A DNA stretch of 64,000 nucleotides, from positions 41,463,874-41,527,873 of the forward strand of contig JAIOJX010000003.1 of assembly GCA_022376925.1 (NCBI GenBank), written 5' to 3'. Below, piece after piece: positions 3,176 through 64,000 of the stretch. The stretch is from Tragulus kanchil. Taxonomy: Eukaryota; Chordata; Mammalia; Artiodactyla; Tragulidae. The number at the start of each line of letters is the position of its first letter. Within the stretch, counting starts at the first letter, position 1. The translations under genes were made by a program, and so were the position numbers. Under the pieces are notes generated by a model. It was not told the origin of the DNA, made no database searches, and saw nothing but the letters and a program-made list of their open reading frames with translations.

Positions 3176-3395
3176 TGCTGTGCTAAGTCTCTTCAGTTGT
3201 GTCCAACTCTGTGTGACCCTATAAACTGTAGCCTACCAGGCTCATACGTTCCTGGGATTCCAGATGATAATACTGGAATGGGTTGCCATGCCCTCCTCTA
3301 GGGGATCTTCCAGACCCAGGGACTGGTCCATATGTCTCTTAAGTCTTCTGCATTGGCATGCAGGCTCCTTACCACTGGTGCCACCTGGGAAGCCT
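3176..3395 (-). mobile_element. Bov-tA/Bov-A SINE, boundary of duplication 1 inside it
   Basis: Full-length minus-strand copy ending in 'ccacctgggaagcc' at 3395. Duplication 1 begins at 3336 within it, so only its head (about 4438-4497) is repeated. Confidence 0.88.
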
Positions 3396-3747
3396 GGGTG
3401 ATGAGTATCTCCTTCAATATCTGATCTTGGTGGTTCATGTTTTCCTAGTGTATAGGCCATTTTTAAAAGCTCCAGGCTTAAATACAAGCTTTCTACATTT
3501 TTCAGCTGACACATTTCTGATTTTCTTTTAGTGGGTGTGCATTCAGACACAGAAACTCATTTTATCACAGAAATGTACACAGCTTCACGTAGGGCGAGAT
3601 CCTGTTACTGAGGGGCTGCTGGGAGACAGAAGGAAAGGGGCAGTGACCCTGTAGTCTGCTGATTGTGTCCCTGGAAACTCCGTGGTCTTAACGGACTTCA
3701 AGGAGTGTTTCACAAGCCAAGTTTAGATTCAAGTTGGTTTATTTAGA

Positions 3748-4366
3748 TTTTTAACATTTAAGAAAGATTGAGGTACAGTTGATTTACAATGTTGTGTTAG
3801 TTTTAGGCGAACAGCAAAGTGAGTCATATATACATGTATACACACACATATATATATTATATACATACGTACATACATGCATACACACATGGGCTTCCCT
3901 GGTGACTCAGAGAGTAAAGAATTTGCCCGCAATGCACAAAACTAAAGTTTGATCTCTAGGTCGGGAAGATCCCCTGGAGAAGAGAATGGCAACCCACTTC
4001 AGTATTTTCGCCTGAAGAATTCCATAGACAGTGGATCCTGGCAGGCTACAGTTCATGGCGTCACAAAGAGTTGGATGTAGCTGAGAAGGTAAAATAAAAG
4101 AAAAATACACATGCATACATATCTATCTATCTATCTATCTATATACATTATTTTTCAGATTCTTTTCGCATATAGGTTGTTATAAGATACTGAGTAGAGT
4201 CCCCTGTACTATAGTAGGTCCTCGGTGGTTATCAATTTTATATAGTAATCTATATATGTGTGCATATAGTAGTGTGCATATGTTAATTTCCCAACTCCAA
4301 ATTTATCCCTCACCAATACTTTCTCCTTTGGTAACCACAAGTGTTTTTTTCTTCATCTATGGTCCT
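3748..4366 (-). mobile_element. L1 3' end, interrupted by a SINE
   Basis: The inverse of a ruminant L1 3' UTR: 'gaggtacagttgatttacaatgttgtgtt' region at 3769-3798, then a CA/TA microsatellite. After the SINE come 'cagattcttttc' and 'gtcccctgtactatagtaggtcct' at about 4157-4221. Cut at 4366 by the duplication filler. Confidence 0.85.
3891..4088 (+). mobile_element. Bov-tA SINE nested in L1
   Basis: Starts with the SINE head 'gggcttccctggtgactca' and keeps the 'ggtcgggaagatcccctgga' core near 3960. It lies within the L1 microsatellite, with the word ACATGCATACA on both sides as a likely target-site duplication. Confidence 0.9.
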
Positions 4367-4437
4367 TTTGGTTTAAAAGCTTTCTATCAAATGTTTTTGT
4401 ATCTTCTATTGTGCCATATAGCTAGTGTATATATGCC

Positions 4438-4497
4438 CTCTTAAGTCTTCTGCATTGGCATGCAGGCTCCTTACCGCTGGTGCCACCTGGAAAGCCT
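4438..4497 (-). mobile_element. Truncated second copy of the 3176-3395 SINE
   Basis: Only the tRNA-related head is present; the body is cut off exactly at the duplication boundary. Two substitutions relative to the complete copy. Confidence 0.85.
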
Positions 4498-4849
4498 GGG
4501 TGATGAGTATCTCCTTCAATATCTGATCTTGGTGGTTCATGTTTTCCTAGTGTATAGGCCATTTTTAAAAGCTCCAGGCTTAAATACAAGCTTTCTACAC
4601 TTTTCAGCTGACACATTTCTGATTTTCTTTTAGTGGGTGTGCATTCAGACACAGAAACTCATTTTATCACAGAAATGTACACAGCTTCACGTAGGGCGAG
4701 ATCCTGTTACTGAGGGGCTACTGGGAGACAGAAGGAAAGGGGCAGTGATCCTGTAGTCTGCTGATGGTGTCCCTGGAAACTCCGTGGTCTTAACGGACTT
4801 CAAGGAGTGTTTCACAAGACAAGTTTAGATTCAAGTTGGTTTATTTAGA

Positions 4850-5830
4850 TTTTTAACATTTAAGAAAGATTGAGGTACAGTTGATTTACAATGTTGTGTT
4901 GGTTTTAGGCGAACAGCAAAGTGAGTCATATATACATGTATACACACACATATATATATTATATACATACATACATACATGCATACACACATAGGCTTCC
5001 CTGGTGACTCAGAGAGTAAAGAATTTGCCCGCAATGCACAAAACTAAAGTTTGATCTCTAGGTCGGGAAGATCCCCTGGAGAAGAGAATGGCAACCCACT
5101 TCAGTATTTTCTCCTGAAGAATTCTATAGACAGCGGACCCTGGCAGGCTACAGTTCATGGGGTCACAAAGAGTTGGATGTAGCTGAGAAGGTAAAATAAA
5201 AGAAAAATACACATGCATACATAACTATCTATCTATCTATATACATTATTTTTCAGATTCTTTTCTCATATAGGTTTTTATAAGATACTGAGTAGAGTCC
5301 CTTGTACTATAGTAGGTCCTCGGTGGTTATCAATTTTATATAGTAATCTATATATGTGTGCATATAGTAGTGTGCATATGTTAATTTCCCAACTCCAAAT
5401 TTATCCCTCACCAATACTTTCTCCTTTGGTAACCACAAGTTTTTTTTTTCTTCATCTATGGTCCTATTTCTGTTTTGTATATAAGTTCACTTTTTTAGAT
5501 TCCATATATAAAATCAGTATCATATGATGTTTGTCTTTATCTGGCTTACTTCACTGAGTTCGATAATCTCTAGGTCCATTTATGTTGTTGCAAATGGCAT
5601 TCTATCATTCTTTCTATGGCTGAGTATTATTCCATTATGCGTATATGTATATAGGTATGTATAGATACAATGGATTATATACACCCACACACATATAAAA
5701 TGGAATATATACCATATATATATAATAGAATATATATATCTCACATCTTCTCTATCAATTCATCTGTCAATGGACACTTAGGTTGCTTCCATGTCTTGGC
5801 TATTGTAAATAGTGTTGCAATGAAATTTCA
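4850..5830 (-). mobile_element. L1 3' end, second copy with ORF2 3' part
   Basis: Repeats the 3748-4366 element and then continues through about 5470-5830 with the inverse of the L1 ORF2 end (words such as 'ggctgagtattattccatta' near 5619 and 'ggacacttaggttgcttcc' near 5772). This copy shows the uninterrupted order, so the L1 is one insertion duplicated in part. Confidence 0.85.
4993..5190 (+). mobile_element. Bov-tA SINE nested in L1, second copy
   Basis: Same insertion as 3891-4088, same flanks, with a few substitutions (near 5112, 5124 and 5137). Confidence 0.9.
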
Positions 5831-7260: not shown

Positions 7261-7678
7261 CTATAGCAATAGATTAAAAGCTATTGAAACCTGGAGAATT
7301 GGGCAAACAGAGAAAAATGCTTTTTACTTTAGTGGTAAAAAAAAGTTGAGACAATGTTCCTCTTTCTGAATCAATTCAGTAGTGTTTTCAAAACTGTTAA
7401 AACGTAAGATAATTAAATTATTAGAAAAGAGAGAAATACCCTGTAGAGTTATAGGAATCATCTTCCAAGGAGAATAAATATGTGTTTATATTCATTGTAT
7501 AAAAAAAAGAGAAATACTTATTTTAAATAACCGCATTAAAACAAATGACTGAAAGAGTAAGCCCTGTGTCTTAATGCTCTCTCATGAGATTCTGAAAGCT
7601 TACATGTGAAAATGAGCTGCTTTAAATGTGGAAAGGCCTGAAGAGAAAAGATTTGGGACTGGATCTTGGGAAATAGTA

Positions 7679-7885
7679 GGGCTTCCCAGGTGGCTCAGTG
7701 ATGAAAAAAAAATCTTCCTGTCAACGCAGAAGACACAAGATATGTGGGTTCAATCCTTGGGTCGGGAAGAACCCCTTGAGTAGGAATATTCTCTAATATT
7801 TTTGCCTGGAAAATTCCATGGACTGAAGAGCCTGATAGACTACAGTCTATGGGATCTGAAGAGATGGAGATAACTTAGTACACTC
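7679..7885 (+). mobile_element. Bov-tA SINE
   Basis: Head 'gggcttcccaggtggctcag' followed by an A run, a B-box-like 'gggttcaatcc' near 7747 and the 'tttttgcctggaaaattcc' block near 7799. A CA-rich microsatellite follows. Confidence 0.88.
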
Positions 7886-7917
7886 TCTCACACACACACT
7901 CACACACACACACTCGG
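7886..7917. repeat. CA-rich microsatellite
   Basis: Interrupted (CA)n/(CACT) tract. The same tract recurs at about 8920-8950 in the second copy of duplication 2. Confidence 0.85.
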
Positions 7918-8046
7918 GAAATTTCAGTTAGCTGGACTGCCTTCTGATCATCACTGGTAGGTGTAGATGGTCAAGAGATGAGAGAATGAAAGTGATGAAG
8001 GGAGAATGGAAGTGATATGGTGTCAACTAAAAAAAAAAGCGTAACT

Positions 8047-8435
8047 TAAAAGGTGAGAATTATGTTTTATTTGGAGAGTTCTCTGAAGACTTTAGCCTGG
8101 AAGACAGCCTCTCAGATAGCTCTGAAGAAGTAAGGAAGGAACTAGGATGAACAGAGATCCTGCAAGTGAAACCCAGTGGCCAGAACATCAAAAGATTACT
8201 TTTCTTTAAAGAAAATAAGACATCCTGAGAAAATGAATTTAGTGCTTTTCTACTCAAGGGAAGATACAAGGGTCTGGGCTCATTGAAGTCATTCCTTTGC
8301 CATGTTCCTTAACTATTTAGGACAAAGTATCCTGTGTTTTTCCATAATGAATCCCCTCAGGGTACAAATTCAGGATCAGCTTCAGTGGCTGCTGGCTTGA
8401 TGTCTGAGAAACTACCTTTGTTTATGGATATGACA
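8047..8435. mobile_element. Candidate artiodactyl ERV/LTR-like repeat, truncated copy
   Basis: The 'aaggtgagaattatgttttatttgg' start and the blocks 'cagcctctcagatagctctga' and 'gggctcattgaagtcattcctttg' resemble a dispersed artiodactyl LTR-like repeat I recall from other loci. It stops at the duplication junction. The exact family and orientation are not certain. Confidence 0.4.
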
Positions 8436-8711
8436 ATTTTTTCCCAAATTTCGTAAATTAAATAATTTTGGTCCCTGTAGAGTTATAGGAATCATCTTCC
8501 AAGGAGAATAAATATGTGTTTATATTCATTGTATAAAAAAAGAGAAATACTTATTTTAAATAACCGCATTAAAACAAATGACTGAAAGAGTAAGCCCTGT
8601 GTCTTAATGCTCTCTCATGAGATTCTGAAAGCTTACATGTGAAAATGAGCTGCTTTAAATGTGGAAAGGCCTGAAGAGAAAAGATTTGGGACTGGATCTT
8701 GGGAAATAGTA

Positions 8712-8919
8712 GGGCTTCCCAGGTGGCTCAGTGATGAAAAAAAAAATCTTCCTGTCAACGCAGAAGACACAAGATATGTGGGTTCAATCCTTGGGTCAGG
8801 AAGAACCCCTTGAGTAGGAATATTCTCTAATATTTTTGCCTGGAAAATTCCATGGACTGAAGAGCCTGATAGACTACAGTCTATGGGATCTGAGGAGATG
8901 GAGATAACTTAGTACACTC
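8712..8919 (+). mobile_element. Bov-tA SINE, second copy
   Basis: Duplicate of 7679-7885 with one extra A in the internal run and two substitutions. Confidence 0.88.
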
Positions 8920-9080
8920 TCTCACACACACACTCACACACACACACTCGGGAAATTTCAGTTAGCTGGACTGCCTTCTGATCATCACTGGTAGGTGTAG
9001 ATGGTCAAGAGATGAGAGAATGAAAGTGATGAAGGGAGAATGGAAGTGATATGGTGTCAACTAAAAAAAAAAGCGTAACT

Positions 9081-9700
9081 TAAAAGGTGAGAATTATGTT
9101 TTATTTGGAGAGTTCTCTGAAGACTTTAGCCTGGAAGACAGCCTCTCAGATAGCTCTGAAGAAGTAAGGAAGGAACTAGGATGAACAGAGATCCTGCAAG
9201 TGAAACCCAGTGGCCAGAACATCAAAAGATTACTTTTCTTTAAAGAAAATAAGACATCCTGAGAAAATGAATTTAGTGCTTTTCTACTCAAGGGAAGATA
9301 CAAGGGTCTGGGCTCATTGAAGTCATTCCTTTGCCATGTTCCTTAACTATTTAGGACAAAGTATCCTGTGTTTTTCCATAATGAATCCCCTCAGGGTACA
9401 AATTCAGGGTCAGCTTCAGTGGCTGCTGGCTTGATGTCTGAGAAACTACCTTTGTTTATGGATATGACAGGTGACATTTTTCATCCACAAAAGATTCTAA
9501 CACCTGGTCAATTGAGTCCTATGGGCTTCTGCACCTCGTCTGTGAACTCTTCCTATCTAAATCTGAACATATTTCCTCTGAAGGGATGTAGGAGCCCATA
9601 TAGCCCAAAATTTGTAAAGTCAACAATCCGATGAGTACAATCCATACCAGCAGCAACACTGAGAATGAATAAAAAGGACCACAGATTGTGAGGTATCAGT
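9081..9700. mobile_element. Candidate ERV/LTR-like repeat, longer copy
   Basis: Repeats 8047-8435, then continues past 9469 with sequence ending in a run around 'agcagcaacactgagaatgaata' near 9649. The reading continues smoothly from copy 2 but not from copy 1. The family assignment is weak. Confidence 0.38.
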
Positions 9701-10075: not shown

Positions 10076-10091
10076 TGTAGGACTTAATTTT

Positions 10092-10405
10092 TATTTATTT
10101 ATTTATTTATTTATTTTGGTGAGGGTGGAGAGGGAGGAGGGTGGGCTGGCCACTTCCACTGGTCTTTCATTTGTCTGGTTTCATCCATCTTTGTTCTTTG
10201 GCCAGTGTGGGCCTACTGTCACGGTGGCATCTGTTGTCGCAGAGCAACGGCTCTGGGCGCATGCGCTCCAGAGCTCTGGCTAGGTAATTGGACACATTGG
10301 TTCAGCCACTCCGCAGCACATGGGATCTTCCCAGGCCAGGGATCAAACCGGTGCCCCTTTCACTACAAGGCAGTGGCCTTACCCACTGGACCACCAGGGA
10401 AGCCC
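10092..10405 (-). mobile_element. GC-rich tRNA-derived SINE, long 3' form
   Basis: Minus-strand element with a TTTA-repeat tail (inverse of A-rich tail) at 10092-10115 and a head ending 'accagggaagccc' at 10405. It is bounded by perfect 16-base target-site duplications at 10076-10091 and 10406-10421 (TGTAGGACTTAATTTT). The inverse of the C-rich 3' module is at about 10118-10150. It contains the CpG-rich 'gggcgcatgcgctccagagc' block near 10256. Confidence 0.92.
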
Positions 10406-10421
10406 TGTAGGACTTAATTTT

Positions 10422-13082
10422 GCCTTTGTACATTCTATTAATAGGAGCAGGCCCTGTGTGCATCAGAAATATTTCTAAAGGGTTTCTCCTATATCTCTCA
10501 TCTCCTGCTCTCTCTCATGTACACATGGGTACTCATGTGTGCAAACAAAAATGAAAATCCTTTACTCGTTCTAGCATTTTCCAATTTTTTTTCCAGCTCT
10601 TCATTTACCCTGTCACCATTTTAACACACATCCTATAATAAGCAGCAAATGTGTTATTGGCAGAGATAACAATGTGATATCAATTTACCACCAATTTGGC
10701 CTCAGAAATCTTTCTTATCTTTTTCTTGTTTGTGTGTGTGTGAGCTCTCAGAATCTTATTACAGAGAACACAATCCTTGACCAGAGAAAATGCTTCCAGA
10801 CAAATCTGCACCTGAATATCTTTGTACTAAATGTGTCTCTTGGATTCTTCCTGGTGTCCCACATCAGTAGATCAGATGGAGATCAAAATTACATTTATCT
10901 CACATGCTGACAAGGGAGAATGTGAAGGCCAAGTTTCCAAGGGAAGAAGGGGGACAGCTTACCGCTGTTCTAAAGATAAGCACAGTGGGGTGGAAACCAG
11001 TGGCAACAGGGGATATCTGAGGATTGGAAGGGAGAGAAATCAGTTCAGATCTTCCTGCTTCAGCAGCAGATGAGCAGGGCCCCTCTGAGTCCAGTAGAAA
11101 CCCACCTCCACACTGTTTCATGGTGTGGAAGCTTGTTGGCCATTGGGGTTATAAGACTCAAAGCTTGGAGGAGGGAGCCCTAACAAGATGTCCTTTTCCT
11201 TCCTGGGTCCTCTTGCACAGGGAAGATTCACCTCTCAGCTAGGAGAGCAATTCAGTATCATGTGCTACGGTGTTAGAAGCCAGGCACTCTGTGTTTATTT
11301 CTCTTGTTTTCATTCCTTCAACCAGTGGTTATTTCACAACCAAGCCTGAATATCAGGAGTAAATGCCCAGTGAAGTGCTTCATAAACTCCACAGTCTTAT
11401 GCCCCTAGACTACTGACCCACTGTATCTCATCTTCTGAAAATCTGAGATTAAATTCTGTTTTAAACTGTGTTTATTCTTTAGGGGAAAAAAAAGGTATGG
11501 GTATGCTGGTGTTGTAATTCTTTTAGTACCTCAGAATATGACCTTATTTGGTTTCGAACAGTGAATATAATATGCCTTCTAAAGGGTTTCTCCTATATCT
11601 CTCATCTCCTGCTCTCTCTCATGTACACATGGGTACTCATGTGTGCAAACAAAAATGAAAATCCTTTACTTGTTTTAGCATTTTCCAATTTTTTTTCCAG
11701 CTCTTCATTTACCCTGTCACCATTTTAACACACATCCTATAATAAGCAGCAAATGTGTTATTGGCAGAGATAACAATGTGATATCAATTTACCACCAATT
11801 TGGCCTCAGAAATCTTTCTTATCTTTTTCTTGTTTGTGTGTGTGTGAGCTCTCAGAATCTTATTACAGAGAACACAATCCTTGACCAGAGAAAATGCTTC
11901 CAGACAAATCTGCACCTGAATATCTTTGTACTAAATGTGTCTCTTGGATTCTTCCTGGTGTCCCACATCAGTAGATCAGATGGAGATCAAAATTACATTT
12001 ATCTCACATGCTGACAAGGGAGAATGTGAAGGCCAAGTTTCCAAGGGAAGAAGGGGGACAGCTTACCGCTGTTCTAAAGATAAGCACAGTGGGGTGGAAA
12101 CCAGTGGCAACAGGGGATATCTGAGGATTGGAAGGGAGAGAAATCAGTTCAGATCTTCCTGCTTCAGCAGCAGATGAGCAGGGCCCCTCTGAGTGCAGTA
12201 GAAACCCACCTCCACACTGTTTCATGGTGTGGAAGCTTGTTGGCCACTGGGGTTATAAGACTCAAAGCTTGGAGGAGGGAGCCCTAACAAGATGTCCTTT
12301 TCCTTCCTGGGTCCTCTTGCACAGGGAAGATTCACCTCTCAGCTAGGAGAGCAATTCAGTATCATGTGCTACGGTGTTAGAAGCCAGGCACTCTGTGTTT
12401 ATTTCTCTTGTTTTCATTCCTTCAACCAGTGGTTATTTCACAACCAAGCCTGAATATCAGGAGTAAATGCCCAGTGAAGTGCTTCATAAACTCCACAGTC
12501 TTATGCCCCTAGACTACTGACCCACTGTATCTCATCTTCTGAAAATCTGAGATTAAATTCTGTTTTAAACTGTGTTTATTCTTTAGGGGAAAAAAAAGGT
12601 ATGGGTATGCTGGTGTTGTAATTCTTTTAGTACCTCAGCATATGACCTTATTTGGTTTCGAACAGTGAATATAATATGCCTTCTATATACTAGGAACTCA
12701 AATCACCTTGCTTCCATTTGCCTTCTCTTCCACTTACTCCAATGAACAAATTTACCCAGTGCTCAAAAAATAAATACCTCACTGTGATTCAAATGCCTTT
12801 CCTACAAATGAGGATAATAATAGGACTTACTTTGACTTTGTGGTGTGCTTGTATGGATAAAATAATTATATATAAAGTGTGTAGTACTGACTCAGGTTCC
12901 CTGGAGCACTTGGTTGCTGTTAGCTGGTATTATCCTTAGCTCCCAGTGGGGACAATAACTTCCATTCAGTGACATAACTATTCATCTAAGGATAAAAAAA
13001 ATGCCAAAGGGAAAAATCTAACACGTGAAACACATTAGCATTTAAATAAGTGAATGATTATTTCATTTGGTGGTTTTGTCAT
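10422..13082. other. Repeat-poor stretch containing duplication 3
   Basis: Apart from the 1.1 kb duplication and a short TG run (near 10732 and 11836), no mobile element is recognised. Frames of 70-80 codons recur in both copies only because the DNA is duplicated; they lack domains and overlap on both strands. Confidence 0.6.
10473..12684 (+). repeat. Direct duplication 3 (two 1104 bp copies, head to tail)
   Basis: Copy 1 is about 10473-11580 and copy 2 about 11577-12684. They abut exactly, sharing the 4-base word TTCT at the outer left edge, the junction and the outer right edge. Roughly five substitutions separate the copies, for example near 10566/11670 and 11542/12646. Confidence 0.97.
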
Positions 13083-13526: not shown

Positions 13527-13845
13527 GGGCTTCCCCTGGTGGTCCAGTGGGTAAGGACACCACCTTGCAGTGCAAGGGGCGCCGGTTTGATCCCTGGCCT
13601 GGGAAGATCCCACGTGCCGTGGAGCGGCTGGACCGATGTTTCCAATTACCGAGCCGGAGCTCTGGAGCACATGCGCCCAGAGTCGGTACTCTGCAGCAAG
13701 AGAGAGGCCACTGTGATGGGAGGCCCACAGGAGCCAAAGAACAAAGACGGATGAAAATAGATAAATGAAAGACCAATAGAAGTGGCCCGCCTGCTCCCCT
13801 GCCTCCCCAACCCGACCCCCGGCCAAAAATAAAATAATAAAAAAA
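13527..13845 (+). mobile_element. GC-rich tRNA-derived SINE, long 3' form
   Basis: Head 'gggcttcccctggtggtcca', A-box TGGTCCAGTGG at 13540-13550 and B-box GGTTTGATCCC at 13583-13593. The CpG-rich body is at 13610-13700, the C-rich 3' module at about 13787-13824, and the A-rich tail follows. Imperfect flanking words (GACAAACCAG before, GATAAACTAG after) may be the target-site duplication. Confidence 0.92.
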
Positions 13846-14664
13846 GATAAACTAGGGATCCAATATTACACCTTATAGCACCTCCCCCTCCAAGTCCTGT
13901 CTATGCAATTTCACCTCATACAGAAGGAGAAGGAAAAGTTCTTGAAGTGATATATGTGGGGATCCAGGAGTTCCTTCTAATTTCTGTGGAAGTAGACTGT
14001 GCTTGTGATGATAAATTTCTCCTCAGTTTGGAACCAATAGAGCCCCAGAGGTAAAGCCCCAGTACCTAAAACAAGAGCTTCAAAATGAGATCCCAAGTTA
14101 GGTTTCAGTTATTTCTCTTAGAAAGTAACTAAAAGGCAGAGATCAACTGACATCAACCTCCAAGTAAAGTATTTTTCTTGATTCAATATTATCAAAGGCT
14201 GTGGTTCAGAAATGTTCACATTTATACTAATTTCCATAATAGAATTAAAATGGAAAAGATTAAAAATAATGTTAAATAAGGAAGCAATGGGAGAAAAGCT
14301 TCAATATATTTCATCTCAGATATGTGCATGTATCACATGTACAAATTTCCATGACTTTGAAGAAATACTCTAGAAAAAGTAAAGAAAAACTTGCTTTTGC
14401 TTCAAATAATCTAAAGACTAATCAGCACAATTGGATAATTAACTAATTTCTCCATTTTATGTTTCTATTCAGCTTAGGTTTAGGCAGGCATCAATATAGT
14501 AGGAAATCTTTCCCTATGTAAAGCAAAAAATGTTGCCCACACAATCATGAATGGGTATCATTGCCAATGGATGAAAATCCCTCACGGGCAGCACTATTTA
14601 GGTAGCTCTATCACCATGGGAATGTTAGAATGGAGAACAGAAGGCATCTTGTAAAATGCTCACA
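13846..14664. other. AT-rich intergenic DNA
   Basis: No recognised repeat or gene between the SINE and duplication 4. Confidence 0.55.
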
Positions 14665-16843
14665 TGAGGGAGTGAACCTCGCCAACGCCACTGAAAAAGA
14701 AAACATTTCCCATTCTGCTTACACAGGTCAATCGTGGACACAACAGAGTTTTATTCCTTTTTACAGTCTAAAGGCAGCTTCTGTGTTTGAGATCTTCCAT
14801 ACATCACCCAGTAACTCCAACATAGACTTTGCTTCCTCATGGAAACTTCTCCTCAGGTTACAAAGTACACGAAAACAAGAAGGAAGGTGCCAGGTGGGGG
14901 AATTCCACTCTCTAGCTGGTTCACTTGTATAATCTCAACAACAGTGACATTGATCAGATTTACTCCTATGGGAAAGTTAACAGGAGATGGAATTATTGCC
15001 CAGTGGTAAAGGCGGACTTCCACATCTCTATTTTGGGAATAAATACTCTTTAAGACATCCTTGAAGTGAATGATTAACACACAGACGGCCAAACGACAAG
15101 ATTTGCACATGTGCACAGTGAAGCTTCCCATCTTCCAGCTCAGCTTAAAGTCTCTATGTTCCAGAATGCATCTAAAAGGGCTCCCAAGTGAGGCATTTCT
15201 GGTTGATCTGAGGTTTCTGCTAGTAGTCTAAATAGAAACGGAACTTTACCATTTATCTGTATTTGTCTCAGATTTTTGTAAAAGAGCAATTTCATTGCAG
15301 CTATGAGAGCATTTGCCAGTGTATTTAATCTAAATGGGGGCAAGTTGGGTATAAAACCCTGAAAGGAAGCACATCTTACATAATTTTGCCATATGAACTT
15401 CCTTATGCATTATTTTCTTTAACAAAATTTTGTTCTGCCTAGGAACATAAGTTGAGAAGCAAGGTGACAATGACTAAGCTGAGCCTAGAAAAAATGTGAT
15501 TAGACACAATGATGCCAATTTTTAAAATAAAATTAAATGAATCTCAAGGATCTTACCCACTTCATGTGTAACTGTAATATGGATCCTTCTCCTGGCCTGA
15601 GAGAGAGTGGGGTTTCACACTGCAGGTTTTGGAGAAAGACAGCTGGAGATAGAAACTCAGGTTGTCATTCTTGATCTGTGATCATACAGTATTTAACCTC
15701 TTGGGGTATCAGTTTCTTCGTCTCTAAATCTGACAACAAATCCCCTCTACCTGAGGGAGTGAACCTCGCCAACGCCACTGAAAAAGAAAACATTTCCCAT
15801 TCTGCTTACACAGGTCAATCGTGGACACAACAGAGTTTTATTCCTTTTTACAGTCTAAAGGCAGCTTCTGTGTTTGAGATCTTCCATACATCACCCAGTA
15901 ACTCCAACATAGACTTTGCTTCCTCATGGAAACTTCTCCTCAGGTTACAAAGTACACGAAAACAAGAAGGAAGGTGCCAGGTGGGGGAATTCCACTCTCT
16001 AGCTGGTTCACTTGTATAATCTCAACAACAGTGACATTGATCAGATTTACTCCTATGGGAAAGTTAACAGGAGATGGAATTATTGCCCAGTGGTAAAGGC
16101 GGACTTCCACATCTCTATTTTGGGAATAAATACTCTTTAAGACATCCTTGAAGTGAATGATTAACACACAGACGGCCAAACGACAAGATTTGCACATGTG
16201 CACAGTGAAGCTTCCCATCTTCCAGCTCAGCTTAAAGTCTCTATGTTCCAGAATGCATCTAAAAGGGCTCCCAAGTGAGGCATTTCTGGTTGATCTGAGG
16301 TTTCTGCTAGTAGTCTAAATAGAAACGGAACTTTACCATTTATCTGTATTTGTCTCAGATTTTTGTAAAAGAGCAATTTCATTGCAGCTATGAGAGCATT
16401 TGCCAGTGTATTTAATCTAAATGGGGGCAAGTTGGGTATAAAACCCTGAAAGGAAGCACATCTTACATAATTTTGCCATATGAACTTCCTTATGCATTAT
16501 TTTCTTTAACAAAATTTTGTTCTGCCTAGGAACATAAGTTGAGAAGCAAGGTGACAATGACTAAGCTGAGCCTAGAAAAAATGTGATTAGACACAATGAT
16601 GCCAATTTTTAAAATAAAATTAAATGAATCTCAAGGATCTTACCCACTTCATGTGTAACTGTAATATGGATCCTTCTCCTGGCCTGAGAGAGAGTGGGGT
16701 TTCACACTGCAGGTTTTGGAGAAAGACAGCTGGAGATAGAAACTCAGGTTGTCATTCTTGATCTGTGATCATACAGTATTTAACCTCTTGGGGTATCAGT
16801 TTCTTCGTCTCTAAATCTGACAACAAATCACCTCTACCTGAGG
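14665..16843 (+). repeat. Direct duplication 4 (two 1087 bp copies, head to tail)
   Basis: Copy 1 is 14665-15751 and copy 2 is 15752-16838, with TGAGG shared at the left edge, junction and right edge. The only difference I saw is one C/A substitution about 12 bases from the internal junction. Confidence 0.97.
14853..15343 (-). other. Open minus-strand region of unknown nature (copy 1)
   Basis: Two adjacent minus-strand frames of 92 and 67 codons lie in different phases (15131-14853 and 15343-15140). I recognise no family. They recur unchanged at 15940-16430 because of duplication 4, so repetition is not evidence of selection. A degraded retrocopy is possible but unproven. Confidence 0.25.
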
Positions 16844-50652: not shown

Positions 50653-50939
50653 GTGGGTTTTTTTTTAGCGTATTTTTTTTTTGGCCACTTCTATTGGTCT
50701 CTCATTTATCTATTTGCATACATTTTTGTTCTCTGGCCTGTGCGGGCCTCCTATCACAGTGGCCTCGCTCATTGCAGGACACCAGCTCTGGGCGCATGCG
50801 CTCCAGAGCTCCAGCTTGTTAGTAGGACACATGGGTCCAGCCCCTCCTTGGAATGTGGGATCTTCCCAGACCAGGGATTGAACCAGCACCCCTTGCACTG
50901 CAAGGTGGTGTCCTTACCCACTGGACAATCAGGGAAGCC
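50653..50939 (-). mobile_element. GC-rich tRNA-derived SINE, second copy
   Basis: Duplicate of 49543-49829 including both target-site duplications. One substitution (near 50818). Confidence 0.92.
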
Positions 50940-51086
50940 CTACTAATGTTTTTTAAGGCAAGTCATTGAAAAGTCGTTACCTCATGATTCAGTTTTCATT
51001 TAATTGTTCTGGTCATGAAGTATTGTGAGAAATACTTTGTTGAAATTCAGATACATTATGATCAGTGGACTGCATGATGTTTACAA

Positions 51087-51330
51087 GGATGATGTGATGG
51101 AATCTGAAGGCAGATCTGCTGGTTTTGAATCCTGACTCTCGGATTTTCTAGCTTTGAGACCTTGTGCTAATTACTTGGTAACTTGTGCTAGTAACTTGGT
51201 AACTGTGCCTCAGCTTTCTTATTTATAAAGTGAGGATATTATTAAGATCTCATGGAATTTTCTCATACAGTTTTCATGAAGATTAGATGAAAATAATGAA
51301 CATAAAGTAGCAAGTATCCAATTAATGTTA
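51087..51330 (+). mobile_element. MIR SINE, copy 2 of 3
   Basis: Same insertion as 49978-50228, intact 3' end. Confidence 0.8.
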
Positions 51331-51550
51331 GGTTTTTAAAATTCAAAATACTAACTCTCAGGTGGGGCAGAGGGAAAATATTGAATAATCAAAATCTTTA
51401 TGCAGGTGATGGGGACAGAGAATATACTTGCGGAAAATGTTCCAGTTGATTCTAACACACTATTTTTCCATCATGGTGAAGAATCAGTGGCATTTAGTTT
51501 TCCTCCTTTCAGCTATTTTGTCATTAAAATGAAAAGAAATCTGACAATTT

Positions 51551-51822
51551 GTTATGGTCTGAATTATATCCCACAAACTTCATTTGCTGAAGTTTTAATC
51601 CACCAGTGCCTTAAAACATGACTGTATTTGGACATGGGATCTTACAGAGGTAATTAAGTTAAAATGAGGTAATTAAAGTGGACCTTAATTCAGTATGATG
51701 GGTATCTGTAGAAGAAGAGGAAATTTGAACACAGACAAGTATAGAGGATGGATCATACGAAGACACAAAGATAGGACAGTTACCCATTAGCCAAAGAGAG
51801 AGGTCTCAGAAGAAACTGACTC
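51551..51822 (+). mobile_element. MaLR (MLT1-like) LTR, left part, first copy
   Basis: 'ttatggtctgaattatatccca' at 51552 is a typical MaLR start. 'ggaggtaattaa' type blocks and 'gaagacacaaagataggac' follow. It is interrupted by a SINE at 51823, and no right part follows in this copy. Confidence 0.7.
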
Positions 51823-52068
51823 TAGGCTTCCCTGGTGGTCCAGTGGGTAAAGACACCGCCTTGCAGTACAAGGGACACAGGTTTGATTCCTGGCCTGGGA
51901 AGGTCCCATGTGCGGCAGAGCAGCTGGACCGATGTGTCCAACTACCGAGCCAGCACTCTGGAGCGCGTGCTCTGCAACGAGAGGCCACTGCAATGGGAGG
52001 TCCACACAGGCCAAAGAACAAAGATGAAAATAAATGAAATACCAATAGAAGTGGCCAAAAAAAAAATA
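51823..52068 (+). mobile_element. GC-rich tRNA-derived SINE, intermediate form, deleted copy
   Basis: Inserted in the MaLR LTR. Compared with the copy at 52922 it lacks about 19 bases around 51965 and has extra substitutions toward the junction. Confidence 0.9.
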
Positions 52069-52185
52069 AGAAAAAGAATGTTTTGATTCAGTTTTCATTT
52101 AATTGTTCTGGTCATGAAGTATTGTGAGAAATACTTTGTTGAAATTCAGATACATTATGATCAGTGGACTGCATGATGTTTACAA

Positions 52186-52428
52186 GGATGATGTGATGGA
52201 ATCTGAAGGCAGATCTGCTGGTTTTGAATCCTGACTCTCGGATTTTCTAGCTTTGAGACCTTGTGCTAATTACTTGGTAACTTGTGCTAGTAACTTGGTA
52301 ACTGTGCCTCAGCTTTCTTATTTATAAAGTGAGGATATTATTAAGATCTCATGGAATTTTCTCATACAGTTTTCATGAAGATTAGATGAAAATAATGAAC
52401 ATAAAGTAGCAAGTATCCAATTAATGTT
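52186..52428 (+). mobile_element. MIR SINE, copy 3 of 3
   Basis: Same insertion again, produced by overlap of duplications 16 and 17. Confidence 0.8.
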
Positions 52429-52649
52429 AGGTTTTTAAAATTCAAAATACTAACTCTCAGGTGGGGCAGAGGGAAAATATTGAATAATCAAAATCTTTAT
52501 GCAGGTGATGGGGACAGAGAATATACTTGCGGAAAATGTTCCAGTTGATTCTAACACACTATTTTTCCATCATGGTGAAGAATCAGTGGCATTTAGTTTT
52601 CCTCCTTTCAGCTATTTTGTCATTAAAATGAAAAGAAATCTGACAATTT

Positions 52650-53330
52650 GTTATGGTCTGAATTATATCCCACAAACTTCATTTGCTGAAGTTTTAATCC
52701 ACCAGTGCCTTAAAACATGACTGTATTTGGACATGGGATCTTACAGAGGTAATTAAGTTAAAATGAGGTAATTAAAGTGGACCTTAATTCAGTATGATGG
52801 GTATCTGTAGAAGAAGAGGAAATTTGAACACAGACAAGTATAGAGGATGGATCATACGAAGACACAAAGATAGGACAGTTACCCATTAGCCAAAGAGAGA
52901 GGTCTCAGAAGAAACTGACTCTAGGCTTCCCTGGTGGTCCAGTGGGTAAAGACACCGCCTTGCAGTACAAGGGACACAGGTTTGATTCCTGGCCTGGGAA
53001 GGTCCCATGTGCGGCAGAGCAGCTGGACCGATGTGTCCAACTACCGAGCCAGCACTCTGGAGCGCATGTGCCCAAAGCCAGTGCTCTGCGATGAGAGAGG
53101 CCACTGCAATGGGAGGCCCACACAGGCCAAAGAACAAAGATGGAAATAAATGAAAGACCAATAGAAGTGGCCAAAAAAAAAATAAATAAGAAAAAGAAAT
53201 CAACTCTGCTAATACCTTGATTTCAGATCTGTAGTCTCTAGGACTGTGTGAGAATAAATTCTTGTTGCTGATTTATCACCCAGTACTTATGGTACTTTGT
53301 TATGGCAACCTTAACAAACTAATCCATACT
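52650..53330 (+). mobile_element. MaLR (MLT1-like) LTR, complete copy split by a SINE
   Basis: Left part 52650-52921. Right part about 53196-53330 has 'ctaggactgtgtgagaataaattcttgttgctg' and 'ttatggcaaccttaacaaact', the expected LTR end with an AATAAA-like signal. The SINE lies between. Confidence 0.75.
52922..53195 (+). mobile_element. GC-rich tRNA-derived SINE, intermediate form
   Basis: Full version: head 'aggcttccctggtggtccagtggg', B-box 'ggtttgattcc', 'gcgcatgtgcccaaagccag' block, ending 'atagaagtggcc' plus an A-rich tail. Flanks 'agaaactgactct' and 'agaaatcaactct' look like a decayed target-site duplication. Confidence 0.92.
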
Positions 53331-53641
53331 CTAATAGAGACATCAATTTCATTCTGAGACTAGGGCATTTAAAAAAAAATGTTACATGCAATCAACATTT
53401 TTTATGGATGCTTCCAGAAATATTTTATGTACATTCATCTAGATCCTTTCTTCTCTCTCCTCCTTTTACCCAAATAGTAACATCACATCAGTTCCATCCT
53501 ATACTATTACACTTTCTTTATCAGAATGCCAGTTTCCTTGCTGGGAATTTCCCTTCCTCGTCAAGTCATCTCCCCAACTAAATTCTCTGAAATGGGAATC
53601 AGAAGTTTCTTTTCTCTTAGTTTTAAACATTTATCCTTTAG

Positions 53642-53980
53642 AGGCTTCCCCAGTGGCTCAATGGCAGAGAATCCACCTGCCAATGCAGGAGGTATGGGTC
53701 CGATCTCCGATCCAGAAGATCTCACATGCCACAGAGTAACTAAGCCTGTGCTCCTCAACCTCTGAGCCTGTGCTCTAGAGTCTGGGGGCTAAAACTATTG
53801 AGCCCATGTGCCATAACCACTGAGTGCTGTAGAACCAGTGCTCTGCAGCAAGATAATCCACTGCAATGAGAAGCCCATGCACCACAACTAGAGAGTAGCC
53901 CTGACTCTTGGCAGCTAGAGAAAAACCCAGCAGCTGTGAAGACCTAGCACAGTCAAAAATAAATAAATAAAAATTTTAAA
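53642..53980 (+). mobile_element. CHR-type tRNA SINE, long form
   Basis: Head 'aggcttccccagtggctcaa', the repeated 'gagcctgtgct' and 'caccacaactagagagtagcc' modules, and an (AAAT)n tail. This is the long artiodactyl tRNA SINE. Confidence 0.88.
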
Positions 53981-54186
53981 ATGTTACAAATGATTCTTTA
54001 ATAGTCTATAGTACATACATAACTTAGCATAGTATGGTGGCAAAGTGCTTTCCCCTCTAACCTTCCATGGAAGAGAAGAAATTGCCATCCTTGGTAGCAG
54101 TAAACACCTTTTCATTCTTGCAGACTAAGTGTAAGCTGTGGTTTCCCTAGAGATTGTGTGGCTTTTTTTCCCACATTTTCTTTCTT

Positions 54187-54256
54187 TTATTTATTTATTT
54201 TTAAACTTTGTGTTTTGTATTGGAATATAACCGATTAACAAACAATGTTGTCCTCA
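54187..54256 (-). mobile_element. L1 3' terminal fragment
   Basis: 'tgttttgtattggaatataaccgattaac' (54210-54238) is the inverse of the L1 end. Duplicate at about 55326-55395. Confidence 0.75.
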
Positions 54257-54257
54257 T

Positions 54258-54490
54258 TAGAGGTAATATGGTGCAATGGAAGAAGTCATGCTTTGGAATC
54301 AACCAGACCTAAGACCTGGCTCAGCAGCTCTTAAACAGACTGGACTCTGACCAAGTTCCTGACTTCACCTCACTGAGTCTCTGCTTCCACACTGAAAAGT
54401 GAGACTAATTAATGACTACCTCATAATGTATTTAGAGTGCCTGGTATATCATACTTGCTTCATAGGTATTGATCTCTTTTATTCTAATAC
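54258..54490 (+). mobile_element. MIR SINE
   Basis: 'agaggtaatatggtgcaatggaagaag' start, 'ccaagttcctgacttcacctcactgagtctctgcttcc' core and 'gagtgcctggtata' end. Duplicate at about 55397-55629. Confidence 0.8.
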
Positions 54491-54781
54491 TATTTGGCAT
54501 GCATTACATTTATATTTTCTCATTCTTCTTTTTTATAGTATTCATTGAGCAAATTCCAAATTATCAATAAATGTGTCTTGTTTATCTATTGTTTTGGGGC
54601 CTGAGTGAGATGGTATATTTATAGGAGGTAAATATATGCCTCCCTTGCTACAGAGGAATTTTAACTTAAATGAGGTTCCTTGCTGGGAATTTCCTTCCTC
54701 GTCAAGTCATCTCCCCAACTAAATTCTCTGAAATGGGAATCAGAAGTTTCTTTTCTCTTAGTTTTAAACATTTATCCTTTA

Positions 54782-55120
54782 GAGGCTTCCCCAGTGGCTC
54801 AATGGCAGAGAATCCACCTGCCAATGCAGGAGGTATGGGTCCGATCTCCGATCCAGAAGATCTCACATGCCACAGAGTAACTAAGCCTGTGCTCCTCAAC
54901 CTCTGAGCCTGTGCTCTAGAGTCTGGGGGCTAAAACTATTGAGCCCATGTGCCATAACCACTGAGTGCTGTAGAACCAGTGCTCTGCAGCAAGATAATCC
55001 ACTGCAATGAGAAGCCCATGCACCACAACTAGAGAGTAGCCCTGACTCTTGGCAGCTAGAGAAAAACCCAGCAGCTGTGAAGACCTAGCACAGTCAAAAA
55101 TAAATAAATAAAAATTTTAA
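54782..55120 (+). mobile_element. CHR-type tRNA SINE, long form, second copy
   Basis: Duplicate of 53642-53980. Confidence 0.88.
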
Positions 55121-55396
55121 AATGTTACAAATGATTCTTTAATAGTCTATAGTACATACATAACTTAGCATAGTATGGTGGCAAAGTGCTTTCCCCTCTA
55201 ACCTTCCATGGAAGAGAAGAAATTGCCATCCTTGGTAGCAGTAAACACCTTTTCATTCTTGCAGACTAAGTGTAAGCTGTGGTTTGCCTAGAGATTGTGT
55301 GGCTTTTTTTCCCAGATTTTCTTTCTTTTATTTATTTATTTTTAAACTTTGTGTTTTGTATTGGAATATAACCGATTAACAAACAATGTTGTCCTC

Positions 55397-55629
55397 ATTA
55401 GAGGTAATATGGTGCAATGGAAGAAGTCATGCTTTGGAATCAACCAGACCTAAGACCTGGCTCAGCAGCTCTTAAACAGACTGGACTCTGACCAAGTTCC
55501 TGACTTCACCTCACTGAGTCTCTGCTTCCACACTGAAAAGTGAGACTAATTAATGACTACCTCATAATGTATTTAGAGTGCCTGGTATATCATACTTGCT
55601 TCATAGGTATTGATCTCTTTTATTCTAAT
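55397..55629 (+). mobile_element. MIR SINE, second copy
   Basis: Duplicate of 54258-54490. Confidence 0.8.
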
Positions 55630-55811
55630 ACTATTTGGCATGCATTACATTTATATTTTCTCATTCTTCTTTTTTATAGTATTCATTGAGCAAATTCCAA
55701 ATTATCAATAAATGTGTTGTTTATCTATTGTTTTGGGGCCTGAGTGAGATGGTATATTTATAGGAGGTAAATATATGCCTCCCTTGCTACAGAGGAATTT
55801 TAACTTAAATG

Positions 55812-55878
55812 AGGTTCTCTGGTGACTCAGTGGTAAAGAACCCACCTGGGATGCAGAAGATGTAGAAGACCCCAGGTA
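55812..55878 (+). mobile_element. Bov-tA head fragment
   Basis: 'ctctggtgactcagtggtaaagaaccc' then 'agaccccaggt'; only the tRNA-derived head is present. Confidence 0.7.
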
Positions 55879-57934: not shown

Positions 57935-58150
57935 AGTAACTAATGAAGACCATGGGCTGGAGGGGCAGGCAGTTTGGGTTTGAGTCCTGATTTTGATGCT
58001 TTTTCTGTTCCCCAGTGTCCTCATCAGTGTCTTTCTCTTTATGTTGTTATGAAGACTAAATAAGATAATTCTACCCAAAGTGGTAGAATGCTAATGGGTA
58101 TATAGTAAGTGCTCAGTTAATATAGGTATTATTACTGGTATTGGCATATA
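57935..58150 (+). mobile_element. MIR SINE
   Basis: 'gggtttgagtcctgattttgatgc' near 57977 and 'gaagactaaataagataattc' near 58050, ending 'agtaagtgctcagttaatata'. Duplication 19 starts inside it. Confidence 0.8.
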
Positions 58151-58205
58151 ACTGTGGAGTCTTGCTCCAAGGTCACAGAAGCAGAGCCCAGAACCAAGGT
58201 CAGCT

Positions 58206-58515
58206 CTGAAAATGACTGGACCTTTAATAGTCATTGCCAAAGCCCACCCCCATCATCAACAGCAGGCTTCCTAACCCCAAACTAGGCAAAAATGCCCACC
58301 CCAGGAATCACCCTATAGTTCCCTAACCAACCATGTAATGCCAACCTTCTGGCAGGATTTTTCTTTGTCTTAAGGCTATAAAAATTGGCTACTCATCCAT
58401 GAAAACTGTCAACTCTCCCTGGCCTGTCAGGAGGTGTTGACCTGCTGTGCTTGCAGTGACCGTATTATCTCTGCTCTTTGTTCTTAATAAACTCACTCCT
58501 TTCTGCAATACTCTA
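58206..58515 (+). mobile_element. Candidate solo retroviral LTR
   Basis: A C/A-rich segment with a TATA box (TATAAAA at 58377-58383) is followed by a pyrimidine-rich R-like region and a polyadenylation signal (AATAAA at 58486-58491), 109 bases apart. That order and spacing resemble class I endogenous retrovirus LTRs. No internal retroviral genes follow. The exact ends and target-site duplication are not clear. Confidence 0.45.
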
Positions 58516-59194
58516 TGTCTGGAAATTATTTTCTAACCTATGCACAGACTACCTCAACAATAATGACTCTAAAATCATGTTTCACATAAATGTTCAGAAA
58601 ATGAACATTTGTGAATGGTCCAGAATTATACAGGAAGTTCTTTTTTATCAAAACTTGTATCAATATTACTTGGATTCTTATAAAAATGTACTCATGGAAC
58701 TTCCTAAGACTACTATAGTAAAAAAATGTAATCTCTGATGATAATTTTGCGGTGTCTCAAGATAGTATTTTGAACATGATTGATGATTATGAAGAACTGA
58801 AAAAAAGGTATGGAAATTTGGAATCAATCATACATTGATATAAGTAGTCCCTTGAAGATTTTAAAAAATGTAATATTATCTTTTGTGAGTTTCTCCCCCA
58901 TATAATTTGCCTTTAAAAACAGAAAACAAGATATGAATCAAAATTGGATGGTTTGAGTTAGCTGGTTATAACTAATTGAAATTTCACTGTATTTCTCAGA
59001 TGAGTCATACTTTCGTACATCCTTCACATCCTTTTTCTATGGCTTTTAAGTACATTTCTCAAAGCCTGAATTTGAAGGTATTCTTGCCTGTGTATAAACT
59101 TCTGTATAAAAGATGGATGCTTATATGGCATAGCCAAGGTATATGTATTCAGAAATTTAAACACTTCATTTGATAAGCAAGAAAGAATAAAAAT
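58516..59194. other. AT-rich DNA within duplication 19
   Basis: No recognised family. An 86-codon frame starting inside the LTR (58478-58738) ends without any domain. Confidence 0.5.
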
Positions 59195-59262
59195 AAAGTG
59201 GTAGAATGCTAATGGTATATAGTAAGTGCTCAGTTAATATAGGTATTATTACTGGTATTGGC
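59195..59262 (+). mobile_element. MIR 3' part, second copy
   Basis: Only the terminal ~65 bases, beginning at the junction of duplication 19. Confidence 0.75.
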
Positions 59263-59322
59263 ATATAACTGTGGAGTCTTGCTCCAAGGTCACAGAAGCA
59301 GAGCCCAGAACCAAGGTCAGCT

Positions 59323-59632
59323 CTGAAAATGACTGGACCTTTAATAGTCATTGCCAAAGCCCACCCCCATCATCAACAGCAGGCTTCCTAACCCCAAACT
59401 AGGCAAAAATGCCCACCCCAGGAATCACCCTATAGTTCCCTAACCAACCATGTAATGCCAACCTTCTGGCAGGATTTTTCTTTGTCTTAAGGCTATAAAA
59501 ATTGGCTACTCATCCATGAAAACTGTCAACTCTCCCTGGCCTGTCAGGAGGTGTTGACCTGCTGTGCTTGCAGTGACCGTATTATCTCTGCTCTTTGTTC
59601 TTAATAAACTCACTCCTTTCTGCAATACTCTA
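59323..59632 (+). mobile_element. Candidate solo retroviral LTR, second copy
   Basis: Duplicate at an offset of 1117, with the same TATA box (about 59494) and AATAAA (about 59603). Confidence 0.45.
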
Positions 59633-60314
59633 TGTCTGGAAATTATTTTCTAACCTATGCACAGACTACCTCAACAATAATGACTCTAAAATCATGTTTC
59701 ACATAAATGTTCAGAAAATGAACATTTGTGAATGGTCCAGAATTATACAGGAAGTTCTTTTTTATCAAAACTTGTATCAATATTACTTGGATTCTTATAA
59801 AAATGTACTCATGGAACTTCCTAAGACTACTATAGTAAAAAAATGTAATCTCTGATGATAATTTTGCGGTGTCTCAAGATAGTATTTTGAACATGATTGA
59901 TGATTATGAAGAACTGAAAAAAAGGTATGGAAATTTGGAATCAATCATACATTGATATAAGTAGTCCCTTGAAGATTTTAAAAAATGTAATATTATCTTT
60001 TGTGAGTTTCTCCCCCATATAATTTGCCTTTAAAAACAGAAAACAAGATATGAATCAAAATTGGATGGTTTGAGTTAGCTGGTTATAACTAATTGAAATT
60101 TCACTGTATTTCTCAGATGAGTCATACTTTCGTACATCCTTCACATCCTTTTTCTATGGCTTTTAAGTACATTTCTCAAAGCCTGAATTTGAAGGTATTC
60201 TTGCCTGTGTATAAACTTCTGTATAAAAGATGGATGCTTATATGGCATAGCCAAGGTATATGTATTCAGAAATTTAAACACTTCATTTGATAAGCAAGAA
60301 AGAATAAAAATAAA

Positions 60315-61470: not shown

Positions 61471-62561
61471 AGAATCAGACAATTTTGAACAAATATATGA
61501 ACTTGTTTTTAACGTTGCTTTGTTGAATAGTTCAGCTGCTCCTCCCTTTTTGATGCACATACACGCATTAAAGGGGTAGATTGCATCTAGATAATGAAAA
61601 TCCCTGAGAAATCTCATTCTGCAAAATGCATTCTCCACTGAAAGACATTTTATTTTTCTCAAGCAAGCACATGACCTTAGGATATATTCCCTTCTTTGTT
61701 CAGTCTGGCAGTTTCCCAAGACCAAACTGCCCCACCAAGTTTTAACATTAGCCCGAGATACTCATTAGCTCCCTTCTATCAGCGTTTTTCTCTTCACTGG
61801 TGCAGCCCTTTTTCCTTCCCTGCCTGTGGAATTCTACAGTAGTTTCATTTCCTGTCTTTAGGAAAGCATAGACTTCACAGTGGCTTTTGCCTATGTATTT
61901 TACTTCTCATTAAAGACTCAAGTGTCTAAAGTTACCAGAGTAAAGGAAAACGCAAATTCTCTCCTCATTTTCCTCCACATTCTCGCCCACTATTTTGCCA
62001 TCTACTTGAACTATCTGGGCCAGAGGGTCCCTTTCTGTTTTCAATGGATCCTAAATATGTCTTTCTGTCTATTTAGGTCTAAAACTTGCCCTTCTTCACC
62101 TTCTAACAGTACTTCATATTCTTGTTACCATATATAAGCAGCATAGATGAGCAATACTCTCAATTTCTCACTTGAATATTAAGAAGTCAAAAATCAATAG
62201 ATGTCATTTGATTGGATCAAGTAAATATTTATTCTACATGAAATTCTTTGCTGCAAATGGAAAGATAAAAAGGAACTTGCATGACAAATGGCTGAATTTT
62301 CTTTGTTTCTCTTTTTAAAAAGGATCTTGCTAGAGAATATTAGGTCACAGGCTATGAAAGTTACTATCCCTGAAGTTTAAAAAGCCAATATAATCAAAGA
62401 CTCCAATCATTCGAAGATCCAAGCACTGTAGTCCAAAGGGCTGCCTTTTCCAGTTTCTTTATTTTTCATAAAAAACATGCTCAGAGATTTCCTTTACTAA
62501 AGAGTCTCTGAAAGAGAAATAAAGAAATCTTCCAAATTTGATTTGTTCCTTTGCTTACCCT
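61471..62561. other. Unique intergenic DNA
   Basis: No recognised repeat. Two 85-codon frames on opposite strands (61468-61725 minus, 61880-62137 plus) have no domain and no coding-like context. Confidence 0.5.
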
Positions 62562-62750
62562 GTGATTGCGTGCATGCTCAGTCATGTCCAACTCTTTGTG
62601 ATCCCATGAACTATAGCCCACTAGGCTTCTCTGTCCATTGGATTTCCCAGGCAAGAATGCTGGAGTGGGTCGCCATTTCTTCTGCCAGGGAGCCTTTCTG
62701 ACACAGAGATCAAACCCGAGTATCCTGTGTATTCTGTGATTAAAGCACTC
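62562..62750 (-). mobile_element. Bov-A SINE
   Basis: Minus-strand: tail 'gcatgctcagtcatgtccaactctttgtg', 'caggcaagaatgctggagtggg' and head inverse near 62735. Confidence 0.88.
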
Positions 62751-63494
62751 CAAAAGGGGCATTGCTCTTGTTCCTAGATTTCTTCTTAAGGCATGTTGTC
62801 ATTATAAAATGAATCTATTGTGCCAAAAGATATTAAGTTAAGAAAAAAAAAGAGTGAGACTTTGGGAGATTTGCCAAGTGGTTAGACTTGCCAGTGGTTA
62901 GCAAAAGTACAACTGTGCTTAGTGTGAACGTGCCAGCTTCTTATATAGTTAAAGCTTGAAAAATATGTATTTGAAAAATGAGTTTGGGGGTATGGCTAAC
63001 TTAACAAAAAATGTGTGTCAATTCTGTAATTGAAGAGTTGTGGTTACACCTAAGAAAAAAGATCAGAGACACAGACAAATTTCATACATATTTAAACCTT
63101 AGAAATCAAAATATGACCCAATATAATAACTGAACACTCCACTCTTATATGCTGGGTTTTTTTTGTAACTTTGGGGGCTTGGAAATTGGGGAGATTGCTG
63201 CTCTTTGGCTGTGTTTCAGGAGTGATACTGCTAAAAAAAACTCCTTTCTCAGGCGCCAGTCCTGTTCAAAATAAGCCCTTCAGACTCAACGGTTTTCCAG
63301 TTTGTTCTCAAATGAAGAAGAAAAGGTCTGTTAGCTGAAGTTCTGTTGATTTTAATATAAGGTTACAAGAACAGCCATTTCCCACTCACCACCTTATATT
63401 TATGCTGCACTCTTTCCCTGGGGCTACTCTCAAGGCTGAGAAGCTGCGTGCAGAGTCTCTGTGTTGACACAAGCTCTAACTTGGAGATTCTGAG
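62751..63494. other. Unique AT-rich DNA between SINE and junction 20
   Basis: No recognised repeat or gene. Confidence 0.55.
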
Positions 63495-63684
63495 GAAGTT
63501 TAAAAAGCCAATATAATCAAAGACTCCAATCATTCGAAGATCCAAGCACTGTAGTCCAAAGGGCTGCCTTTTCCAGTTTCTTTATTTTTCATAAAAAACA
63601 TGCTCAGAGATTTCCTTTACTAAAGAGTCTCTGAAAGAGAAATAAAGAAATCTTCCAAATTTGATTTGTTCCTTTGCTTACCCT

Positions 63685-63873
63685 GTGATTGCGTGCATGC
63701 TCAGTCATGTCCAACTCTTTGTGATCCCATGAACTATAGCCCACTAGGCTTCTCTGTCCATTGGATTTCCCAGGCAAGAATGCTGGAGTGGGTCGCCATT
63801 TCTTCTGCCAGGGAGCCTTTCTGACACAGAGATCAAACCCGAGTATCCTGTGTATTCTGTGATTAAAGCACTC
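63685..63873 (-). mobile_element. Bov-A SINE, second copy
   Basis: Duplicate of 62562-62750 at offset 1123. Confidence 0.88.
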
Positions 63874-64000
63874 CAAAAGGGGCATTGCTCTTGTTCCTAG
63901 ATTTCTTCTTAAGGCATGTTGTCATTATAAAATGAATCTATTGTGCCAAAAGATATTAAGTTAAGAAAAAAAAAGAGTGAGACTTTGGGAGATTTGCCAA

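Follow-up and report, generated by a model that had tools for sequence, protein, structure and literature searches.

False duplications are a recognised class of error in genome assemblies. As far as the accessible text of one report goes, they appear as nearby copies on a single scaffold, sometimes linked by sequence without read support, and they are richer in erroneous k-mers than regions assembled correctly (PMC9516828). In the cattle assembly Btau_4.0, high-identity local duplications were judged, in the available part of that study, to represent alleles that local assembly errors had kept from being merged (PMC2796684). The accessible descriptions of the assembler wtdbg2 state that it uses 1024-bp read segments as vertices (PMC7506008, PMC10989838), and that its second program, wtpoa-cns, computes the consensus of contigs, which consist of overlapping sequences of reads (PMC12037172). 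Here, we analyzed 64,000 nucleotides of the Tragulus kanchil assembly GCA_022376925.1 (contig JAIOJX010000003.1, forward strand, positions 41,463,874 to 41,527,873). In this whole stretch, referred to below as the window, 20 segments of ~1.1 kb were each present twice in direct tandem.

We consider it almost certain, with a probability of about 95%, that these duplications are an assembly artefact of pieces left unmerged, whichever program produced them. The contig would be a chain of separately built consensus pieces of 1.8 to 4.5 kb, with neighboring pieces sharing ends of ~1.1 kb. The structure, the error pattern and the polarity of the errors can be seen in the sequence, and we infer a failed software step: the step meant to align the shared ends and keep one copy would not have worked, and the pieces would have been written out consecutively, leaving each shared end present twice. 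The true locus would then be ~42 kb long and single copy at these sites. False duplication from unmerged sequence is already known as an error type, and we found no published description of this regular ~1.1 kb series in the accessible text of the open-licence literature.

Tandem pairs, pieces and junctions

Self-comparison of the window, which listed matches of at least 300 bp and left out smaller ones, recovered all 20 of the tandem pairs claimed in an earlier sequence-only reading. Nineteen were complete and one was cut by the window end (Table 1). Their starts lay at most 12 bases from those given in that reading, and every pair was direct, as it had also maintained in stating that no copy is inverted. 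The offsets ranged from 1034 to 1206 bp (~1034 to 1205 in the earlier reading), with a mean of 1117, a standard deviation of 39 and a coefficient of variation (CV) of 3.5%. The copies were 97.4% identical in pair 1 and 98.0 to 100% identical in the remaining pairs. The further claim that no segment exceeds two copies except where neighbors overlap agreed with our result: third copies occurred only in stretches common to adjacent pairs, of 332 and 404 bp, and, by coordinates, of 65 and 139 bp. Two high-identity copies adjoining on one contig, as expected of a false duplication, were thereby observed in all 19 complete pairs and in the cut one. Nineteen complete matches of ~1 kb, with 97 to 100% identity and nearly a single spacing, cannot be chance. 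The remaining self-matches listed were 80 to 89% identical and ran in both orientations, as expected if they came from interspersed repeats.

Read as a chain, the window consisted of 19 complete pieces of 1788 to 4525 bp (mean 3102, CV 27%), the end of the last complete piece being an estimate. Each piece had ~1.1 kb in common with the next, the length of this overlap being near-constant and that of the pieces variable. Every complete piece was affected (19/19). No successful join was visible in the window and no piece exceeded 4.5 kb; nor did the window contain runs of N. The second copies made up about 35% of its length. Collapsing the pairs gave ~42 kb (41.7 kb computed with the full pair 20 offset subtracted, and ~42.3 kb allowing for the cut copy), so that the window is inflated about 1.5-fold.

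The junctions between copies were of two kinds. At nine of the 19, between 5 and 61 extra bases separated the copies, and elsewhere the copies abutted or overlapped by a few bases. Joints sharing at least 3 bases numbered 5/19, compared with 6.4% for random joints (binomial P 0.006). The overlap inputs for pairs 4 and 18 (12 and 6) came from mismatch-tolerant alignments and the null was based on exact matching; the exact stretches in these two pairs, judged by eye, were 5 and 3 bases long, and the count of 5/19 holds. The P values for joint overlaps of 4 and 5 bases are too favorable and were not relied on. The short stretches of 3 to 5 bases, including those of pairs 3, 4 and 5, may indicate that the joining step took a spurious short overlap between ends.

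Distribution and polarity of the differences

The differences between copies were concentrated towards either end of the shared segment. In pairs 2 to 19, the outer 65 bp contained 38 events in 2340 bases (1.62%), against 29 in 17654 bases (0.16%) in the middle, a density about 10-fold higher at the ends. Pair 1, in which 18 of the 24 events fell in the middle, was excluded from this count. A rate of 0.16% is about what ordinary heterozygosity, together with residual errors of the consensus, would give. The middle differences of pairs 2 to 19 included 19 substitutions, of which 10 were transitions and 9 were transversions. Several pairs hardly differed at all: no difference was found in pairs 13 and 20 (the latter over 506 bp only), and one each in pairs 10, 12 and 19. 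Judged from sequence alone, the 10-fold excess of differences at the ends and the polarity described below agree with the erroneous or unsupported sequence that characterizes the boundaries of false duplications.

To see which copy was odd, we compared both copies of the 19 complete pairs with other relatives in the window and noted, at each of the 91 differences, which of the two these relatives matched better. These relatives were interspersed repeats or likely third copies from overlapping pairs, and 33 of the 91 differences could be judged. All nine judged differences in the start zone favored the first copy, and four of the five in the end zone favored the second, the fifth being a tie. 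Taking both ends together, the copy on the junction side was odd in 13 of 14 judged differences, with one tie, and the favored copy lay deep inside a piece. These sites are clustered, and the fair count is six out of six pair-ends, namely the start of pairs 1, 6 and 7 and the end of pairs 11, 16 and 17. The polarity was decided by one relative in pairs 7 and 11, and in pair 16 by one relative at one site, the other site being tied; relatives lying within duplicated segments were possibly counted double. In pair 6, between 16 and 22 groups of related matches elsewhere in the window agreed with the first copy and none with the second.

The 19 judged middle differences were less one-sided, with 11 favoring the first copy, seven the second and one tied. 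Four of the seven that favored the second copy were in pair 17, about 70 to 105 bp from the segment end, and seven of the 11 that favored the first were in pair 1, which had nine judged middle differences. Within the two long stretches present in triplicate, the odd copy lay at a piece end in all three differences and never inside a piece. The stretch of pairs 15 and 16 had one difference, in the copy at the beginning of a piece; the stretch of pairs 16 and 17 had two, both in the copy at the end of a piece. This is weak evidence because piece ends account for two of the three copies in any case (chance ~0.3). The same three sites were also counted among the 91 differences (as one middle site, one end site and the tie).

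The position of the differences at the ends and the oddness of the junction-side copy suggest that the copies are consensus pieces with poor ends, since mutation following a real duplication would ignore the junction. Differences spread regardless of the junction, as a biological tandem duplication would show, were not what we observed.

Origin of the duplications

The earlier proposal of unmerged contig overlaps was supported by the piling of differences at the ends, the odd junction-side copy, the extra bases at nine of 19 junctions and the involvement of all 19 complete pieces. We would refine it in one respect. The pieces look more like consensus units within the layout of one assembler than like ordinary contigs, because the overlaps are fixed at ~1.1 kb between pieces of 1.8 to 4.5 kb, and ordinary contig overlaps vary widely.

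Among the programs considered, wtdbg2 fitted best, and its edge-by-edge consensus left unjoined is a probable source of the pairs. The near-constant overlap, slightly above 1024 bp, suggests a fixed vertex of ~1 kb, and hence wtdbg2. This program builds its consensus edge by edge, with options for a node overlap of 256 and a join length of 1500, and its normal output is not known to keep the shared part twice. If a consensus is made for each edge between two vertices and neighboring edges share a vertex, a failed join would leave each vertex twice. A shared segment of ~1024 bp plus bin uncertainty agrees with the offsets of all 20 pairs. A toy geometry with a 1024-bp vertex and bin jitter (36 settings, with assumed depth and scale) gave means of 931 to 1305 bp; some settings reached 1117 and others did not. 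The model sizes are therefore compatible with those observed, which is not a sharp test. Two other sources were considered and rejected. Polishing chunks have a fixed overlap, but the piece length varies here; exact long-k de Bruijn overlaps do not fit an overlap whose length varies and whose ends disagree.

The unmerged pieces could also have come from a different program, a possibility that competes with the attribution to wtdbg2 only. Short contigs might have been joined without Ns by a scaffolder or gap-filler, either with their ends unmerged or with both ends extended by local assembly. Errors at piece ends would be equally expected from such a step, and the joint overlaps of 3 to 5 bases are what end joining or gap closing could leave after taking a spurious overlap. 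However, ordinary contig overlaps should vary widely, and the confinement of 20 out of 20 to 1034 to 1206 bp would need a separate reason. We regard this route as possible but clearly less likely than wtdbg2.

Some observations weigh against the unmerged pieces or their attribution to wtdbg2. The divergence of pair 1 along its whole length is not accounted for by ragged piece ends; its copies may come from two divergent haplotypes, or one of them from a paralogue. At the eight of 19 junctions with at least 9 extra bases, anchored alignment did not connect the extra bases with either flank (p 0.09 to 1.0 on the right and 0.17 to 1.0 on the left). Neither the piece lengths (p 0.52) nor the spacings (p 0.61) showed a 256-bp periodicity, although read-length errors could have blurred bins of this size. 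Finally, neighboring shared segments overlapped by up to 404 bp, which is more than the 256 of the wtdbg2 option. As to the nature of the extra junction bases, a noisy run-on of the flanking pieces gained no support, the flank matches at these eight junctions being no better than those to random places.

An alternative within the range of known artefacts is heterotype false duplication, in which both haplotypes of each overlap are kept because the alleles failed to merge. The rate of differences in the middle of pairs 2 to 19, with their 19 substitutions, is within the range of ordinary heterozygosity, and the SNP-like (single-nucleotide polymorphism-like) differences throughout pair 1 would also be in line with it. 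However, divergence cannot explain why pairs with no difference, or with one, were left unmerged, and the fixed size would have no explanation. We therefore hold heterotype duplication to be very unlikely as the origin of the series. The sampling of alleles may add to the mismatches, but is not the cause of the artefact.

Real tandem duplication is less probable still, to the point of being barely credible. A mutational process of the lineage, for example microhomology-type or polymerase-theta-type end joining, would have to have made about 20 recent, near-identical copies of ~1.1 kb in 64 kb. End joining can yield a mixture of microhomology and insertions at joints, and both the excess of joints with at least 3 shared bases and the nine with inserted bases would fit this. 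The copies should then differ evenly and on either copy, but the differences crowd the ends and make the junction-side copy the odd one, a polarity that real duplication does not account for. Such a process would also have to produce 20 recent events of the same size, each with only two copies, never inverted and in one size class, that together place over a third of the window in second copies, with near-identical middles in all complete pairs except pair 1. The suggestion that the window might represent a new class of local duplication found no support in the sequence evidence. Chance, interspersed repeats and tandem arrays were also discarded as causes, the other listed matches being 80 to 89% identical in both orientations and the arrays found, in a search limited to periods of up to 500, all short.

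Table 1. Coordinates and properties of the 20 tandem pairs in the window
Pair	First copy	Second copy	Orientation	Identity	Offset (bp)	Extra bases between copies	Remarks
1	3330-4369	4431-5469	+	97.4%	1101	61	whole 3330..5469; SNP-like differences over full length
2	7439-8435	8473-9469	+	99.5%	1034	37	
3	10473-11581	11577-12685	+	99.5%	1104		joint with 5-base shared stretch
4	14659-15756	15745-16843	+	99.7%	1086		
5	18306-19390	19387-20469	+	99.5%	1081		
6	21395-22554	22553-23705	+	99.2%	1158		three small deletions in first 35 bases of second copy
7	23567-24751	24773-25958	+	99.4%	1206	21	139 bp overlap with pair 6
8	26904-27961	28001-29057	+	99.4%	1097	39	
9	29578-30752	30753-31927	+	99.6%	1175		
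10	33314-34374	34375-35436	+	99.9%	1061		
11	35712-36860	36861-38010	+	99.5%	1149		
12	37946-39022	39032-40108	+	99.9%	1086	9	65 bp overlap with pair 11
13	42101-43206	43218-44323	+	100% over 1106 bp	1117	11	
14	44433-45582	45582-46726	+	99.6%	1149		
15	47231-48364	48370-49502	+	99.6%	1139	5	
16	49171-50266	50282-51388	+	98.7%	1111	15	332 bp overlap with pair 15 (triple copy)
17	50985-52069	52084-53185	+	98.0%	1099	14	404 bp overlap with pair 16 (triple copy)
18	53531-54678	54673-55817	+	99.5%	1142		
19	58077-59197	59195-60314	+	99.9%	1118		
20	62372-62877	63495-64000	+	100% over 506 bp	1123		second copy cut by window end

Genes, RNAs, repeats and consequences

Pair 1 stood apart from the other complete pairs in having ~2.6% differences between its copies, spread over their full length. 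Both copies of pair 11 contained a transfer RNA (tRNA)-Cys (anticodon aca) predicted by ARAGORN, at 36634-36707 and 37781-37854; these elements probably represent a short interspersed nuclear element (SINE) or a tRNA pseudogene. Interspersed repeats at 13527-13841, 17909-18223, 10088-10407 and other places were 80 to 89% alike and lay in both orientations. Their translations resemble what we take to be common ruminant SINE sequence, and the repeat content makes a ruminant origin plausible. Of 27 open frames with at least 110 amino acids, 10 were scanned against Pfam and gave no match. Rfam gave no match in the window at the gathering score, and no coding exon usable for a reading-frame test of the duplication was found.

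The pairs carry no weight as biology and matter as a warning about assembly quality. If the whole assembly resembles the window, it would be inflated ~1.5-fold, gene models would contain false exon duplications, and surveys of tandem or segmental duplication would be badly misled. Direct repeats of ~1.1 kb every 2 to 4 kb, with errors at the joints, provide a signature that is easily screened.

Comparison with known systems

The origin proposed for the window resembles the fuzzy Bruijn graph layout of wtdbg2, as far as the accessible descriptions go, in the 1024-bp size of the vertices and in a consensus computed by a second program from overlapping reads (PMC7506008, PMC10989838, PMC12037172). 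It differs from that layout in that 256-bp bins leave no direct trace here.

Like the false duplications of PMC9516828, in the part of that text available, the pairs consist of adjoining copies on one sequence with erroneous sequence at their boundaries. That text stresses heterozygosity and assembly gaps, whereas the window is free of N runs, its duplications are near-constant in size and every complete piece is affected. The artificial duplications of Btau_4.0, as the accessible text describes them, are likewise local, of high identity and derived from unmerged sequence (PMC2796684). However, those cases were larger than 5 kb or at least 20 kb long and belong to an older assembly, whereas in the window pairs of ~1.1 kb follow one another in a regular series.

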